Of a stretch of DNA of 24,028 bases, positions 7,901 through 19,696 are shown one piece after another (the first letter of the stretch is position 1; the number at the start of each line of letters is the position of its first letter). The translations under genes and the position numbers were made by a program. The notes under the pieces are model-generated. The model was not told the origin of the DNA, searched no databases, and worked only from the letters and a program-made list of their open reading frames with translations. This DNA comes from a virus, in the IMG/VR virus record IMGVR_UViG_3300027969_004654, positions 1-24,028 of that record, one strand, 5' to 3'.

Positions 7901-8952
7901 TCTTTACATTTCCGATACAAGTCGATAGTATAGTTTATTATAGCTTCTTTATTTTTAATATCTAGTAGATTAGTAAATTCAATAATGGCTTGCTCTATAT
8001 CAATGCCTGAAAGGTCTTGTTTTTCTTTATTATCATCTAATATTCTATTAAAATTAATATCGTAATCAACTGTTAGCGCTTGAGGAGATAGCAAATGTAA
8101 TTTTTTAATTAGAACATTCATATCATCTTGACAAATATTCAGATCTACTTTAAGTTTTACTATATTTTTATCAAATATTTTTTTAATCTTATCTGTAAAG
8201 CTACCTTCCTTTACTAGATCACTCAAATATATACGTTCATATAAAGGAGATACCTTATTTTCTATAAACACATATTCAAGAGTATCTAGATCTAGTATAT
8301 GATAACCTTTAGTATTGCCTGCGTCACCAAAATCCATTTGAAAGGGATTACCAGCATATAGTATTGTACCTGAATCATATTGTTTTTCATGTCGGTAATG
8401 AAAATGTCCTGATATTACTAACGGAGCTTTGTGTAGTAAATCTGGTATATTAAATCCACTCTCACAATCCTTAAAAGTATTCATTTTAAAACTAATAATT
8501 TCAAAATGTCCGAATATTACATCACTTTTTGGGATATCTTCTATAGCGGTATTCCAAGGACAAAAAGTTATAGTCCGATCAAACGCGTTTAATGCGTATA
8601 CACTTTCAAATATAGTAACATTTTTTCTATTTTTAAAGATAGATAGCGAGTTTACATCCGTTCTATGCTTGAAATAAATATCGTGATTGCCGGTAATAGC
8701 AATAAGGTTAAAATCTTTAAATATATCTAATATATCTGCTGATACTTGTAGAGTACTGACTGAAATCTCACTACGATTGTGATGCCAATCACCACAGAAG
8801 ATAATATCTGTAATTCTCTTACTATTTAGTTCTTCTTTTAACCAGTTAGCCCAGTTTATTGCTATTTCATGCCAAAAACTACTATTAGAATGAATACCTA
8901 AGTGTAAATCAGATATAATAGCTACTTTTGATTTATTCAGCGTTGTATTCAT
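7897..8952 (-). CDS. 47: Recombination endonuclease nuclease subunit gp47 (SbcD/Mre11 family)
   Basis: A metallophosphoesterase nuclease partner of gp46. Numbered from the ATG at 8952 (351 residues), the metal-binding motifs are SDLHLG (D15, H17), CGDWHHNR (D55), TGNHD (88-91), then GHFE and GHFHYR. The open frame continues upstream to 9015, but that extension lies wholly in gene 55 and adds 21 residues with no family counterpart; starting at 8952 puts the first catalytic motif near residue 15, as in T4 gp47. The start overlaps the end of gene 55 by 20 bases. No Shine-Dalgarno site is visible, so coupling to gene 55 translation is likely. Confidence 0.94.
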   Translation of the reverse strand: MNTTLNKSKVAIISDLHLGIHSNSSFWHEIAINWANWLKEELNSKRITDIIFCGDWHHNRSEISVSTLQVSADILDIFKDFNLIAITGNHDIYFKHRTDVNSLSIFKNRKNVTIFESVYALNAFDRTITFCPWNTAIEDIPKSDVIFGHFEIISFKMNTFKDCESGFNIPDLLHKAPLVISGHFHYRHEKQYDSGTILYAGNPFQMDFGDAGNTKGYHILDLDTLEYVFIENKVSPLYERIYLSDLVKEGSFTDKIKKIFDKNIVKLKVDLNICQDDMNVLIKKLHLLSPQALTVDYDINFNRILDDNKEKQDLSGIDIEQAIIEFTNLLDIKNKEAIINYTIDLYRKCKE

Positions 8953-9382
8953 CGTAATTATCAGAGTCGATTGGTTTAATGTAAATATGCTGACCGTGTG
9001 TAGTATACGGATCATTCATAGCACTTTCATAAAACTGCTCTTTATAATTTGTTAATGCTTCGTGATGTCTTTTTTCTTTTTTAATTCTATTAATAAATGC
9101 ATGAAAAGCGATTGTAGTAAAGTATGAGAAGGGATTAGAGTTAGCATCAAAACTATACTTTCTATATTTTAGAGCTGCATACATTTTTATTAAAGCATCT
9201 CCTATCATATCATCTTTATATGTATAGTTAATAAAAGATGGATTGTAACTTAGTCCATAGGCTATCTTTTTTATATTTTCTGCAAGGTCATCTGTTAATT
9301 TATCACATTCGTAATATACTCTCAATGATTCTTTAAAATCTTTCGGATCAACATAATTGTGCTTCTCTTTAACTTCCTTCAT
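8933..9382 (-). CDS. 55: Late-transcription sigma factor gp55
   Basis: A 149-residue minimal sigma factor that directs host RNA polymerase to late promoters with a TATAAATA -10 element; in T4 it works with the gp33 co-activator and the gp45 clamp. The region 2-like core is clear: YTYKDDMIGDALIKMYAALK (53-72), then NPFSYFTTIAFHAFINRIKK (83-102), very close to T4-type gp55 proteins. The C-terminal 35 residues are acidic/polar, where the clamp-binding tail sits in T4. Its presence is matched by TATAAATA elements before plus-strand genes at 11271 and 12500. A plausible promoter, TTGATT-16-TATCAT, ends 5 nt before the ATG. Confidence 0.93.
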   Translation of the reverse strand: MKEVKEKHNYVDPKDFKESLRVYYECDKLTDDLAENIKKIAYGLSYNPSFINYTYKDDMIGDALIKMYAALKYRKYSFDANSNPFSYFTTIAFHAFINRIKKEKRHHEALTNYKEQFYESAMNDPYTTHGQHIYIKPIDSDNYDEYNAE

Positions 9383-9387
9383 ACATA

Positions 9388-9415
9388 ATGATATTACCGA
9401 TATTAATTAAATCAA
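9388..9415 (-). promoter_or_regulatory. Putative sigma70-type promoter for gene 55
   Basis: Reading the minus strand: TTGATT at 9415-9410, a 16-nt spacer, TATCAT at 9393-9388, then 5 nt to the ATG at 9382. The -35 hexamer is the same as the one before the uvsY-like gene. It overlaps the stop codon region of uvsW. The -10 is only 4/6, so this is a moderate call. Confidence 0.4.
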
Positions 9416-10857
9416 GGTTGAATTATATATTTTATAGTATTTTTTATTTTTTCTAACCTATAAATTTCTTGTCTTTTTAGATTATGCTCTTTACCATACT
9501 TTAAATTATCAGCAATATCTAAAATTATTAACTTTTCTTTATTATTATGCTTTCTTAAACCTCTACCAATTGACTGAACTGTGCGTACAAAGGATTTACC
9601 TCCTGCGGCAAAAATAATATTATGAAGATTTTTAATATTCACACCAGTTGAGAATATAGCACTAATAGCAACACATATAATGTTGTTATTTTTTTCCATT
9701 ATTTGCTTTATTTTTTCTCTTTCATCAACTTCAACCGAGCCTCTTATAAAAAAGACCTGCTTATCAGCGAGATTTACTAATTTGTTATAAACTATCTCAC
9801 CGTGTTCAATAAAATTAACAAGTATTAATGTATTATTATTGAGTTTTTTACATAAAGTTAACAATAAGTTATTTCTAAACTCACTATTATGTAAAAAAGT
9901 CAATTCATCCCTGTAACTATTGTCAGTTAGATTAGGCGGTCTGCTGTTATATGTAATATCTAGTGTTTTGATCTCAACATTTACTAAAAACTCTTCTGTT
10001 CTTAGCTCATAACTTGATTTTTCGTATATTGTCGGACCAAATTTACCTAAAATAGACCATTTATCGACTTGTTCTTCAGGTAGAGTACCTGTAAAACCAT
10101 ACTTACTAAGGGTTTTTATCTTAGAAACTATCTTACTAATCTTATTATCTGCTTTAATGACGTGTGCTTCATCTACTATAAGTAAATCTACATACTTTAC
10201 CCATTCATTCCTATCAAATTGACTCTGAAGTATACCGATATTACAAATAATAACATTAGCCGACATATCTGGAGCATGTGCGCCGGTCCATTTTGTAAGA
10301 TTAAAAGTAATACCACATTTAATAAACTCATCATATGTCTGTGCTACTAAACCTAAGTCAGGTACAATGACTAAACACTTAAATAAGTTAGGTTTATTGC
10401 TGTTTTTATAGTGATTTTCAATAAGAGCAGCTGTTACAAATGTTTTTCCTGCACCAGTACCTAAGATACATAGTCCTCTTCCTAACTTCAAGGCTTTTAA
10501 CACAACTTCTTCTTGATAATCACGTAACTTATACTTAAAAGTATCAAGAAGAAGGGGATTACTGTTAGATATAGTGTCTAACACCTCCTGTAATTTACTT
10601 GTTATAATAAGATTAACAAGTTTTTGGGTTTCTATAAGGTATTTTCGTAACTCCCAGTAGATTCCAAACTCACAAATACCTGTTGGTGTGATTATATACT
10701 TACGTTGAGGTGCAAATCTATTAGTACGTCGTGCAAAATGTGCGTTTTTAACCTTAACACTGAAAAAGTTACGGATTTCTGCAAATAAATCAGTATTTTC
10801 CGTATAAATTCGCAATTTACCTGCAGAAACAGTGTAATCTAGTGTAATATCCGTCAT
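9412..10857 (-). CDS. uvsW: UvsW-like SF2 DNA/RNA helicase
   Basis: A 481-residue superfamily 2 helicase. In T4, UvsW unwinds branched recombination intermediates and R-loops, switching replication from origin-dependent to recombination-dependent. Motifs: LRDYQEEVV (Q-motif-like, 111-119), Walker A GTGAGKT (133-139), motif Ia VIVPDLGLVAQ, DEAH box VDEAH (228-232), motif III FTGTLPE (255-261), and motif VI QSIGRGLRKH near 435. The N-terminal ~110 residues correspond to the T4 DNA-binding region. It is somewhat shorter than T4 UvsW (587). Its ATG overlaps the uvsY-like stop by four bases (ATGA), so the two are translationally coupled, matching their shared role in recombination. Confidence 0.92.
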   Translation of the reverse strand: MTDITLDYTVSAGKLRIYTENTDLFAEIRNFFSVKVKNAHFARRTNRFAPQRKYIITPTGICEFGIYWELRKYLIETQKLVNLIITSKLQEVLDTISNSNPLLLDTFKYKLRDYQEEVVLKALKLGRGLCILGTGAGKTFVTAALIENHYKNSNKPNLFKCLVIVPDLGLVAQTYDEFIKCGITFNLTKWTGAHAPDMSANVIICNIGILQSQFDRNEWVKYVDLLIVDEAHVIKADNKISKIVSKIKTLSKYGFTGTLPEEQVDKWSILGKFGPTIYEKSSYELRTEEFLVNVEIKTLDITYNSRPPNLTDNSYRDELTFLHNSEFRNNLLLTLCKKLNNNTLILVNFIEHGEIVYNKLVNLADKQVFFIRGSVEVDEREKIKQIMEKNNNIICVAISAIFSTGVNIKNLHNIIFAAGGKSFVRTVQSIGRGLRKHNNKEKLIILDIADNLKYGKEHNLKRQEIYRLEKIKNTIKYIIQP

Positions 10858-11249
10858 AATTGCTCAAGTTTAGCTAGTTCAACAACGTTTTTTATCTCCC
10901 ACACCATGGATCCCATAATTTTTTCGACTTTTTCGAGGTATTCAATAATATAATCATACTCTTTTATCTTATCACTGTATGTTTCCATGTCTTTTGTGTT
11001 TTCTGCTGCGTATTCTGCTGTTTGTATAGTAATTTTAACGGGACTTTCATTTAAAATACGTTGTGCAAGCTCTTTTTTAAATGCTTTTTTATGTTTTATA
11101 AGCTTTTCTCGTTTAATCTTAGCATCAATTAGTCTAGCTACCCAAAAATGCTTACGAGAAGGCAGTTTTAACTGAATATCCTTGATATTAAAGTCAGTTA
11201 CCACTAAATCTTTATTAATCTCGTCTATATATTTGGCTAATAGTTCCAC
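10854..11249 (-). CDS. uvsY: UvsY-like recombination mediator
   Basis: A 131-residue, largely alpha-helical, charged protein. Length (T4 UvsY 137), helical character, a Trp/Lys-rich segment (HFWVARLIDAKIKREKLIKH) and its place directly before uvsW support a UvsY-type mediator that loads the UvsX recombinase on gp32-coated single-stranded DNA. Sequence similarity is not strong by eye, so this is partly contextual. The only in-frame start is a GTG at 11249; the nearby ATG at 11251 hits a stop at once. A TATACT element sits exactly 6 nt before that GTG, predicting a leaderless message. It heads the minus-strand recombination series. Confidence 0.7.
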   Translation of the reverse strand: MELLAKYIDEINKDLVVTDFNIKDIQLKLPSRKHFWVARLIDAKIKREKLIKHKKAFKKELAQRILNESPVKITIQTAEYAAENTKDMETYSDKIKEYDYIIEYLEKVEKIMGSMVWEIKNVVELAKLEQL

Positions 11250-11255
11250 ATATAC

Positions 11256-11283
11256 AGTATAAATATAAATATGACTAAATCAA
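11256..11283 (-). promoter_or_regulatory. Putative sigma70-type promoter for the uvsY-uvsW series
   Basis: Minus strand: TTGATT at 11283-11278, 16-nt spacer, TATACT at 11261-11256, 6 nt to the GTG start at 11249. The -35 lies inside codons 3-5 of the oppositely oriented gene at 11271 and the -10 overlaps that gene's late-type promoter. Confidence 0.55.
11258..11265 (+). promoter_or_regulatory. T4-type late promoter (TATAAATA)
   Basis: A perfect TATAAATA, the gp55-recognised late -10 element, with exactly 5 nt before the ATG at 11271. With T4 geometry (element at -13 to -6) the transcript would begin on the A of the ATG. It shares bases with the minus-strand -10 of the uvsY-like gene. Confidence 0.6.
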
Positions 11284-11543
11284 TAGGTAAATTTCAAGAA
11301 GCTTTTAACAAAGTAATAGAGGAGGACTCTTTTTCTGCAGGAGCTCTTGGAGGATCTGCGGGAGGATATAACCCCTCAGCAGGTAAAATTTCGTCAACTG
11401 ACTTTTATGCTCCAGGAGATGCGCGTATTGCAGCGCCGCCTGGCGTTATACAAAAACGAATCGGTGCAATAAAGTTAAAATCAAAACGAACACGTAAACA
11501 AACTAAAAGACGTACACAAAAGCGAGGAACAACAGCACTATGA
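11271..11543 (+). CDS. Small basic-tailed protein, possible internal head protein
   Basis: A 90-residue protein of no family I can name. It has three parts: an N-terminal segment GKFQEAFNKVIEED (6-19) resembling the capsid-targeting leaders of this region, a Gly/Ser/Ala-rich stretch, and a C-terminal tail (about 66-86) of almost only Lys, Arg, Thr and Gln. Such a tail suggests DNA or RNA binding; T4 internal head proteins are likewise small, basic and packaged with DNA. It is the first gene of the plus-strand series, driven by a perfect TATAAATA, and its stop overlaps the next start (ATGA). Role is inference. Confidence 0.72.
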   Translation: MTKSIGKFQEAFNKVIEEDSFSAGALGGSAGGYNPSAGKISSTDFYAPGDARIAAPPGVIQKRIGAIKLKSKRTRKQTKRRTQKRGTTAL

Positions 11544-11962
11544 CTGACTTAGGTCATTGGAACTATGCTAATATATTAACAGAATCGACTGAATTACCGT
11601 TCGGATTTGTGTATATTATTACAAACTGTGTTAATAATAAGAAGTATATTGGTAAGAAGCAATGTCAAACAGTGAAAAAGCGGGCTCCTCTTAAGGGAAA
11701 AACTAGGAAACGACGTGAAATAGTTGAGACAGACTGGAAGACATATACATCATCTTCAAATGATTTAAATAAAGACATAGAATTACACGGTAAATCTAAT
11801 TTTAAATTTGAAATATTACAGTGGTGTAACTCAAAGTGGATGTTATCATATATAGAAGCTAAACTTCAATTTGAACATGAAGTGCTTTTAGATAGCTCAT
11901 ACTATAATGGAATCATTAACTTACGCATCGGTAAAAAACCAGCAAGCTACGATTGTTTATAA
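11540..11962 (+). CDS. GIY-YIG nuclease-like protein
   Basis: A 140-residue protein with a GIY-YIG nuclease core: FVYIIT (23-28) and KKYIGKK (34-40) for the two motif strands, the basic KGKTRKRR (52-59), YTSSSNDL (69-76), the metal-binding Glu106 in YIEAKLQFE, and Asn123 in YYNGII. The KGKxRKRR plus WKxYxSSSxxL pattern matches a conserved, stand-alone nuclease found in many marine T4-like phages; I know of no proven function for it. The catalytic Arg after YIG is not obvious. It is not embedded in another gene, so a resident role (packaging or repair) is as likely as homing. Start ATG overlaps the preceding stop. AGGA lies 11 nt upstream. Confidence 0.85.
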   Translation: MTDLGHWNYANILTESTELPFGFVYIITNCVNNKKYIGKKQCQTVKKRAPLKGKTRKRREIVETDWKTYTSSSNDLNKDIELHGKSNFKFEILQWCNSKWMLSYIEAKLQFEHEVLLDSSYYNGIINLRIGKKPASYDCL

Positions 11963-18030: not shown

Positions 18031-18705
18031 TTAATTACGGGAAGACATATCGATAAATTTATAAAATTCATTTCTTGTCTTTTCATCATTCATAAAATCA
18101 CCTGATAGTTTACTTGTTACCATATAGCATCCATCATGCTTAATACCGCGATGACATGCACATGTATGTTGAGCCTTAATTACAACAGCAGCTCCTAAAT
18201 TGTCTTCACAAGCAAGGTTAATGGCATTATGTACTTGCGTTGTAAGGGCTTCTTGCAATTGTGGCCGTCTACCATAAAATTCAACAATTCGATTAAGCTT
18301 ACTTAAGCCAATTACTTTACCGCTACTTGAAGGAATATAAGCAACATGTACTACACCAGTAAAAGCAAGATGGTGATGAGAACAAAGAGATTTAAGCGGA
18401 ATATTACATTGAGCAATAATACCATCATAACCATCAGAAGGAAAAGCAGTAACAGATGGAGGCTGACTATAACAGCCTGATGCAATATCATTTACAAAAG
18501 CTTTTGCTACTCGCATAGGAGTATTAGCAGAGTTTGGATCATTACGCCAATCAAAACCTAATGCATCCATATATTTTTCATAAGCTGCAGCTGCTCGCTT
18601 AATAATAACTTGCTTTTCTTGCTCCGTACGAGGAGAATTACCATTTGCATTAGGTAATTTAAATACTTCACCAACCTGTATTGTATTAATATCTGTTTCT
18701 TCCAT
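18031..18705 (-). CDS. folE: GTP cyclohydrolase I (FolE)
   Basis: A 224-residue enzyme converting GTP to 7,8-dihydroneopterin triphosphate, the first step toward 7-deazaguanines (and folate). Zinc ligands are all present: Cys108 and His111 in SLCSHHH and Cys182 in HTCACHRG, with the same spacing to the following Arg as E. coli FolE. TPMRVAKAF (62-70), GKVIGLSKLNRIVEFY and RRPQLQEALT are also canonical. The frame is open to 19023, but that part is antisense to another gene; the ATG at 18705 gives the usual length. A promoter TTGTTA-16-TATAAT ends exactly 6 nt before it. With QueD and QueE nearby, a 7-deazaguanine role is favoured over folate. Confidence 0.96.
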   Translation of the reverse strand: MEETDINTIQVGEVFKLPNANGNSPRTEQEKQVIIKRAAAAYEKYMDALGFDWRNDPNSANTPMRVAKAFVNDIASGCYSQPPSVTAFPSDGYDGIIAQCNIPLKSLCSHHHLAFTGVVHVAYIPSSSGKVIGLSKLNRIVEFYGRRPQLQEALTTQVHNAINLACEDNLGAAVVIKAQHTCACHRGIKHDGCYMVTSKLSGDFMNDEKTRNEFYKFIDMSSRN

Positions 18706-18711
18706 AAGAAT

Positions 18712-18739
18712 ATTATAAGGTAGTTCATTTAAATAACAA
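18712..18739 (-). promoter_or_regulatory. Sigma70-type promoter for folE
   Basis: Minus strand: TTGTTA at 18739-18734, 16-nt spacer, perfect TATAAT at 18717-18712, 6 nt to the ATG at 18705. The predicted transcription start falls on the start codon. Confidence 0.6.
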
Positions 18740-18744
18740 TAGAG

Positions 18745-18752
18745 AATAAATA
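18745..18752 (+). promoter_or_regulatory. Late-promoter-like element (AATAAATA)
   Basis: Seven of eight matches to TATAAATA with exactly 5 nt before the ATG at 18758, back to back with the folE promoter in the 52-base divergent gap. Confidence 0.38.
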
Positions 18753-18757
18753 AAAAT

Positions 18758-19696
18758 ATGTTAAAGAGTCGTGAAGTATATTCAGAAAGTTTTGCAGGTA
18801 AAGTTGCACGTATGGCTGCAAAGGCAATTGCTCCAGAGTTAATGAATATTAAAGATAAATACGCTGCAACTATTAAAAAAGTATCCAGAGCTTTTAATGA
18901 ACCAAAGGCTGCATTAAAAGACTTATTTGAAAGTAACCCAGATAAATTTAGAAACTGTAAATTAGTAGAATTGGTAAAAGATAGTGCTGCAGGTGTAATT
19001 CCGGAAGCAGCTGCTCCATACATGGGACCGGGAAATTTTCCAGCTCCTGGAGTTCAGCAGGGGAGGTTGCCAGTTCCACCACCTGCGCGACCAAAGGCGG
19101 TGATTACCCCTGCAGCTGTGAATACCTCCGTAGCTCCAAAAAATAAAAAATATAAAGGATCTTATAAAGCAATTTTTGAAGGTAGTGTTAAAGAAGGTAA
19201 TGACGCTAATTCACCTCTACAGTACAGTAAGAATTTTTCCGTTACTATAAAGCCTAATAATCCTAGAAATGACGAAGATATAAAATATGTAGCAGATACG
19301 GTTATTTTTAAAGATGATGTAAAGTTTACTCAAGTTGATGATTCAAATAGTAATACAAATGACAAAGCTTATGAAGTATTATTTACCTCTGAAGTATTAA
19401 AAAATAAATTTAAATTAAATTCTAAACCTAATTTTAATAGTCTAGGTGATATTAAAAAAGGTGATCCATTAATGGGTTATAAGTTAAATTTTGATGGCAC
19501 AGTTACGGTCGCTGGATCGTCTAACCCGGTTAAAGACGACGAATATATTATTGTTAAAAATAATAATGGACGTCTACAAAGTGATGGTAAGCTGTATAAG
19601 GGTGGTAAAGTAATTGTCAGCAGTGTAAATATAAATTATAGTCAAAAAAATCTAATACTTGAATCAAAAAAGTTAGTTGACTTATTTTGTAAGTGA
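18758..19696 (+). CDS. Hypothetical protein with Pro/Ala-rich linker
   Basis: A 312-residue protein of no recognised family. The N-terminal ~85 residues are helical and basic (MLKSREVYSESFAGKVARMA then AKAIAPELM), with a start weakly like the shared leader. Residues about 87-130 form a Pro/Ala/Gly linker (PAPGVQQGRLPVPPPARP). The C-terminal ~180 residues are beta-rich, Asn/Lys/Asp-heavy and end LILESKKLVDLFCK. Domain layout suggests a structural or packaged protein. It is the only plus-strand gene between folE and queD, with a late-promoter-like element 5 nt upstream. Confidence 0.65.
   Translation: MLKSREVYSESFAGKVARMAAKAIAPELMNIKDKYAATIKKVSRAFNEPKAALKDLFESNPDKFRNCKLVELVKDSAAGVIPEAAAPYMGPGNFPAPGVQQGRLPVPPPARPKAVITPAAVNTSVAPKNKKYKGSYKAIFEGSVKEGNDANSPLQYSKNFSVTIKPNNPRNDEDIKYVADTVIFKDDVKFTQVDDSNSNTNDKAYEVLFTSEVLKNKFKLNSKPNFNSLGDIKKGDPLMGYKLNFDGTVTVAGSSNPVKDDEYIIVKNNNGRLQSDGKLYKGGKVIVSSVNINYSQKNLILESKKLVDLFCK

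Follow-up and report, generated by a model that had tools for sequence, protein, structure and literature searches.

T4 late promoters (TATAAATA, gp55/gp33/gp45) have their boxes roughly one helical turn before the transcription start site (PMC2988020), and uvsW of T4 is read from a late promoter, its expression ending the use of R-loop origins (PMC3016281). In RB49, S-PM2 and Syn9, middle expression is proposed to come from early promoters that overlap late ones (reviewed in PMC2984593), and the conjugation switch of plasmid pLS20 is built on overlapping divergent promoters (PMC4207663). For a divergent overlap of an early with a late promoter of the kind described below we found no report in the open-access literature. 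Here we analyse such a junction in the 24-kb record of a T4-like phage (24,028 nucleotides, analysed over its whole length and hereafter called the window), where uvsY and a small gene encoding 90 amino acids are read away from each other. Comparison with relatives suggests, with a probability that we put at roughly 0.75, that two genuine divergent promoters are packed onto one TATA in a leaderless layout and that this explains the arrangement as a whole.

The divergent uvsY junction

The part of the window to the left of 11.25 kb carries uvsY, uvsW, gp55, gp47 and gp46 on its minus strand (assignments by PHROGs), and the 90-aa gene begins on the plus strand just to the right of them (Table 1).

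Table 1. Genes and predicted promoter elements at and around the junction, with positions in the window.
Feature	Position	Strand	Remarks
gp55-like late sigma factor	8933..9382	-	phrog_234, 1.4e-24
Predicted gp55 early promoter, TTGATT-16-TATCAT	9388..9415	-	5 nt before the ATG at 9382
uvsW-like helicase	9412..10857	-	phrog_16, 2e-75; overlaps the uvsY stop
uvsY-like recombination mediator	10854..11249	-	phrog_231, 9e-6 (weak), and alignment; GTG start
Predicted uvsY -10 element, TATACT	11256..11261	-	6 nt before the GTG; TATAAT in most relatives
Predicted late promoter box, TATAAATA	11258..11265	+	gp55 type; ends 5 nt before the ATG of the 90-aa gene
Second TATAAATA	11264..11271	+	overlaps the first; runs into the start codon of the 90-aa gene
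90-aa gene	11271..11543	+	ATG start; no known family
Predicted uvsY -35 element, TTGATT	11278..11283	-	sigma70-type early promoter; kept across relatives
GIY-YIG-type nuclease-like gene	11540..11962	+	follows the 90-aa gene; phrog_447 and several homing endonuclease families

A preliminary description of this stretch had placed the promoter elements within a span of 37 bp (11247–11283), and all of its element coordinates, the 21-bp spacing and the shared bases are correct to the base. The predicted uvsY early promoter reads TTGATT-16-TATACT-6 nt-GTG on the minus strand, with the GTG at 11249, and bases 11258–11261 are common to its -10 and to the plus-strand late box, while 21 bp lie between this GTG and the ATG of the 90-aa gene at 11271. 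In the 90-aa gene the uvsY -35 spans the whole of codon 4, with the two bases before it from codon 3 and the one after it from codon 5, and its coordinates confirm the earlier placement of this element inside codons 3–5. The junction thus has opposed predicted starts and common core elements, the arrangement of overlapping divergent promoters. The second TATAAATA, absent from the preliminary description, is confined to the window and its three closest relatives and, given its wrong distance from the start, is probably not the box in use.

The 90-aa protein belongs to a conserved small family (FxxxFxKLLxED ... YAPGDARIPK ... basic tail). BLAST searches with it and with UvsY against cultured phages gave no match, so that they led to no cultured relative for which there are transcript data. 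Several plus-strand genes between 12500 and 17486 of the window have MKxFxxxF...E-like N-termini (MKSFKKYFLEQ, MKIFKDFFLEK), which presumably recall the capsid-targeting sequences of T4 internal head proteins, and the 90-aa family may have an N-terminus of this kind (FxxxFxKLLxED). The phrog_447 family matched by the following gene is labelled NAD synthetase, though the protein has GIY-YIG features.

In the window the uvsY promoter is imperfect, with hexamers that match at 4/6 and 5/6 positions. Sigma70-like sites are found there at chance level (29 against 30.1 expected, sd 5.8), so the window by itself is no proof, and it is this result of the promoter scan that speaks for a reading in which the elements are chance matches in AT-rich DNA and one promoter or neither is genuine. 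Such a reading is very improbable in view of the conservation of the junction, the persistence of the -35 where it is non-coding, the choice of codon within it and the class-specific genes downstream of the two promoter types, all of which argue against it and are set out below.

Conservation of the two promoters among relatives

Relatives were fetched with UvsW, with the 90-aa protein and with alignments of UvsY and of the 90-aa family, which gave 106 unique divergent uvsY/90-aa junctions from uncultured relatives. Because these junctions are mutually related we counted them as 36 clusters at 75% identity, a fairer unit though still not a fully independent one. An early promoter (score of at least 9/12, 3–9 nt from the uvsY start) is present in 21 of the 36 clusters, against 2.1 expected from dinucleotide shuffles, and at a score of at least 10/12 it is present in 11, against 0.34. 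The late box occurs in 26 of the 36 (2.6 expected) and the two promoters occur together in 16 of the 36 (0.19 expected); the canonical late box is missing from 10 clusters and the early score falls below 9 in 15, some of these being deep relatives.

Most junctions have the form TTGATT-16/17-TATAAT-6 nt-GTG/ATG with the fused core TATTTATAAT, and 68 of the 106 unique junctions have the register TATTTATNNT in common. The distance to the late gene is less constant, the box lying 7–9 nt before the start of the small gene in many relatives and 19–23 nt before it in two (L015 and L092). That the register of the overlap is kept although this distance varies would fit a regulatory switch, in which gp55 holoenzyme at the shared TATA would actively repress uvsY-uvsW as early expression gives way to late, with the overlap conserved on that account, a reading to which we return below.

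Conservation of the -35 extends to junctions where the element is non-coding: it is retained in L015 and L016, in which the small gene starts after it, and at the non-coding -35 of L092 it is a perfect TTGACA. Among 38 distinct N-termini, counted without preselecting for AATCAA, 35 have TCA as the Ser codon within the -35, whereas TCA makes up 74 of the 340 other Ser codons of the same genes (22%). Coding constraint as the cause of the conserved -35 is excluded by these non-coding cases and by the codon choice. For the late box the informative bases are the TATT that precede the -10 and complete the box, as they are found at 5 of 5 uvsY promoters but at only 1 of 47 other early promoters of the same genomes (6 of 52 early promoters overall, five of these six belonging to uvsY). 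With TATT nearly absent from the other early promoters, an ordinary early promoter of these genomes does not contain the late box, and an origin of the box as a by-product of one is excluded. These comparisons indicate that each of the two promoters is under selection separately.

Probable leaderless layout and promoter classes

Promoter-to-start distances were measured in 477 kb of the clade, comprising the window and four relatives (G001–G004; L095–L119), with crude ORF calls that add noise but, judging by the controls, are not the source of the distance peak. Of the 150 upstream occurrences of ATAAATA, 92 end 5–8 nt from a start codon (52 at 5 nt and 27 at 6 nt), the usual distance of the late box in the clade being 5–6 nt; the distance of TATAAT to the start codon peaks at 6 nt, with a range of 5–8 nt, and that of TTGA[CT] at 28–29 nt. 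The Shine-Dalgarno motifs GGAG, GAGG and AAGG show no peak before starts in the same 477 kb. When T4 was run through the same pipeline, ATAAATA was found at 5–8 nt in 0 of 17 cases, with a peak at 27–28 nt, and a strong Shine-Dalgarno peak appeared at 6–8 nt; S-PM2, run in the same way, gave no close boxes. Together these controls exclude a bias in the picking of start codons as the source of the pattern.

The -10 of a sigma70 promoter typically lies about 6 nt before +1. With this value for the early class and one helical turn for the late class, the box-to-start-site spacings of both place +1 at the start codon or next to it, and, given the lack of a Shine-Dalgarno signal, the mRNAs of the clade are probably leaderless in the early and late classes alike. 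For uvsY the predicted +1 would fall at or beside the GTG at 11249, making its message leaderless as well. Compared with the overlap, the leaderless layout has the wider reach and may be the greater surprise. Leaderless translation throughout a T4-like phage group, which the locking of promoter to start implies, would affect the annotation of gene starts and point to hosts able to translate leaderless messages. Pelagibacter phage HTVC008M (L121, L123, L124) is intermediate: 8 of its 25 ATAAATA boxes lie exactly 5 nt before a start, its genes in general have a strong Shine-Dalgarno peak, and its late messages are possibly leaderless.

The gene classes behind each promoter type were taken from the longest relative (G001, 154.6 kb). 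The genes directly behind late boxes include those for terminase, tail sheath, tail tube, tape measure and head-tail adaptor (5 of the 10 late-box genes tested had no family match), and the genes behind TTGA-N16/17-TATAAT include those for SSB, UvsX, a helicase, QueD, QueE and GTP cyclohydrolase; several of the genes tested had no family. These gene sets support the assignment of the two classes, the one as T4-type late promoters, with a TATAAATA-like box before structural genes and gp55 in the same phage, and the other as sigma70-type early promoters, with conserved TTGACA/TATAAT-like hexamers 16–18 apart. The QueD, QueE and GTP cyclohydrolase genes behind early promoters lie at L099:7403-9561 and L101:17654-18589 of this genome, and the window has a GTP cyclohydrolase gene of its own at 18031-19023; together these genes point to a 7-deazaguanine pathway, which may serve to modify DNA.

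Occupancy of the shared TATA and comparison with known systems

Conservation and gene classes bear out the arrangement that the preliminary description had proposed, namely two opposed promoters whose -10s share four bases, one of sigma70 type leading to uvsY-uvsW and one of gp55 type leading to the small gene. In our preferred explanation, host sigma70-type RNA polymerase would read the minus-strand early promoter into the uvsY-uvsW recombination operon, and gp55 holoenzyme would read the plus-strand T4-type late promoter (TATAAATA-5 nt-ATG) into the small late gene and the genes behind it. Both predicted promoter classes abut their start codons and the start-to-start gap is only ~20–25 bp; if neither promoter can lie away from the start codon that it serves, such a gap has a single place for both -10s, the same TATA. 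From the known geometry, one polymerase at this TATA would exclude the other, while the two transcripts would not overlap. With both promoters conserved and four bases shared between them, joint occupancy is very unlikely, and known RNA polymerase footprints make mutually exclusive occupancy of the shared TATA likely. The earlier claim that RNA polymerase is unable to occupy both promoters is therefore supported by the geometry of the shared -10 bases and by the conservation of the two promoters.

Whether the overlap has a function beyond this is less certain. The genome-wide locking of promoters to starts favours pure compaction, in which leaderless promoters abut their starts and a short divergent gap forces the overlap without any regulatory role. 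In the same direction, eight other early/late divergent pairs (G001–G004) are arranged back-to-back and do not overlap, at start-to-start gaps of 48–55 bp. This non-overlapping layout is only ~25–30 bp longer and is in use, yet the uvsY junction keeps its overlap across highly diverged relatives, and we give compaction alone a little less than an even chance. The exclusion may in addition help to turn uvsY-uvsW off as late transcription begins. Besides the constant register, the regulatory switch draws support from a count of 58 close divergent pairs, of which 13 join an early to a late promoter, against ~7 expected if the two were independent (an estimate from small numbers), and 0 join two early promoters. 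But early promoters may be silenced globally at the late stage, gp55 is outside the controlled unit and packing by itself accounts for the overlap, so that we hold the switch to be a possibility of a tentative kind.

The position of gp55 also bears on the negative feedback that had been proposed to act on it through the uvsY promoter, for which we find no support. Its own predicted early promoter (Table 1) is conserved, a TTGA(W)W-16-TATAAT-like promoter standing 5–9 nt before the gp55 ATG in most closer relatives. As gp55 has this promoter, occupation of the uvsY promoter would cost it read-through at most, and gp55 would stay outside the exclusion. For uvsW, by comparison, there is no adjacent promoter and no TAAATA 5–7 nt upstream in the window or its relatives, and hence no late promoter directly upstream of the kind that marks late expression of uvsW in T4.

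The AT-rich junction might instead, or also, be a replication origin like oriF(uvsY) of T4 (PMC3016281), with the uvsY transcript as primer. The cumulative GC-skew minimum of the window lies at 11254, and in G002 and G004 it is likewise near the junction; but GC skew also flips with gene direction, and G001 and G003 have no global minimum at the junction, and we consider an origin at this site improbable.

Set against T4 late promoters, the late promoter described here has the same 8-base box, a gp55 homologue in the same phage and structural genes downstream; it differs in that its box lies 5–6 nt from the start with no Shine-Dalgarno sequence, whereas in T4 the distance is 27–28 nt and a Shine-Dalgarno sequence is present. 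T4 uvsY likewise stands on a promoter with a sigma70-like -10. RB49, S-PM2 and Syn9, which are T4-type phages without MotA, also have early and late promoters at one place, but there the overlapping promoters serve the same gene, while those described here face away from each other, each towards a gene of its own. HTVC008M and S-PM2 have the same order of uvsY, uvsW, gp55, gp47 and gp46, although their uvsY stands behind late genes of its own strand and the divergent junction is absent. Opposed promoters that share DNA are also found in pLS20; in contrast to that system, nothing here points to a dedicated repressor or a looping protein, and the change of sigma factor itself would regulate. It is conceivable, though doubtful, that this is a large group of uncultured T4-like phages whose early and late transcripts are both essentially leaderless and free of Shine-Dalgarno sequences, and in which sigma exchange at a shared TATA is a repressor-less off-switch for uvsY-uvsW, with the timing of UvsW reversed relative to T4. 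If so, sigma-factor exchange alone, at one shared -10, would decide which of two operons is read. In T4, uvsW lies on the opposite strand under a late promoter and late UvsW ends origin-dependent replication, whereas here uvsW follows uvsY behind a predicted early promoter, the opposite of the T4 arrangement.
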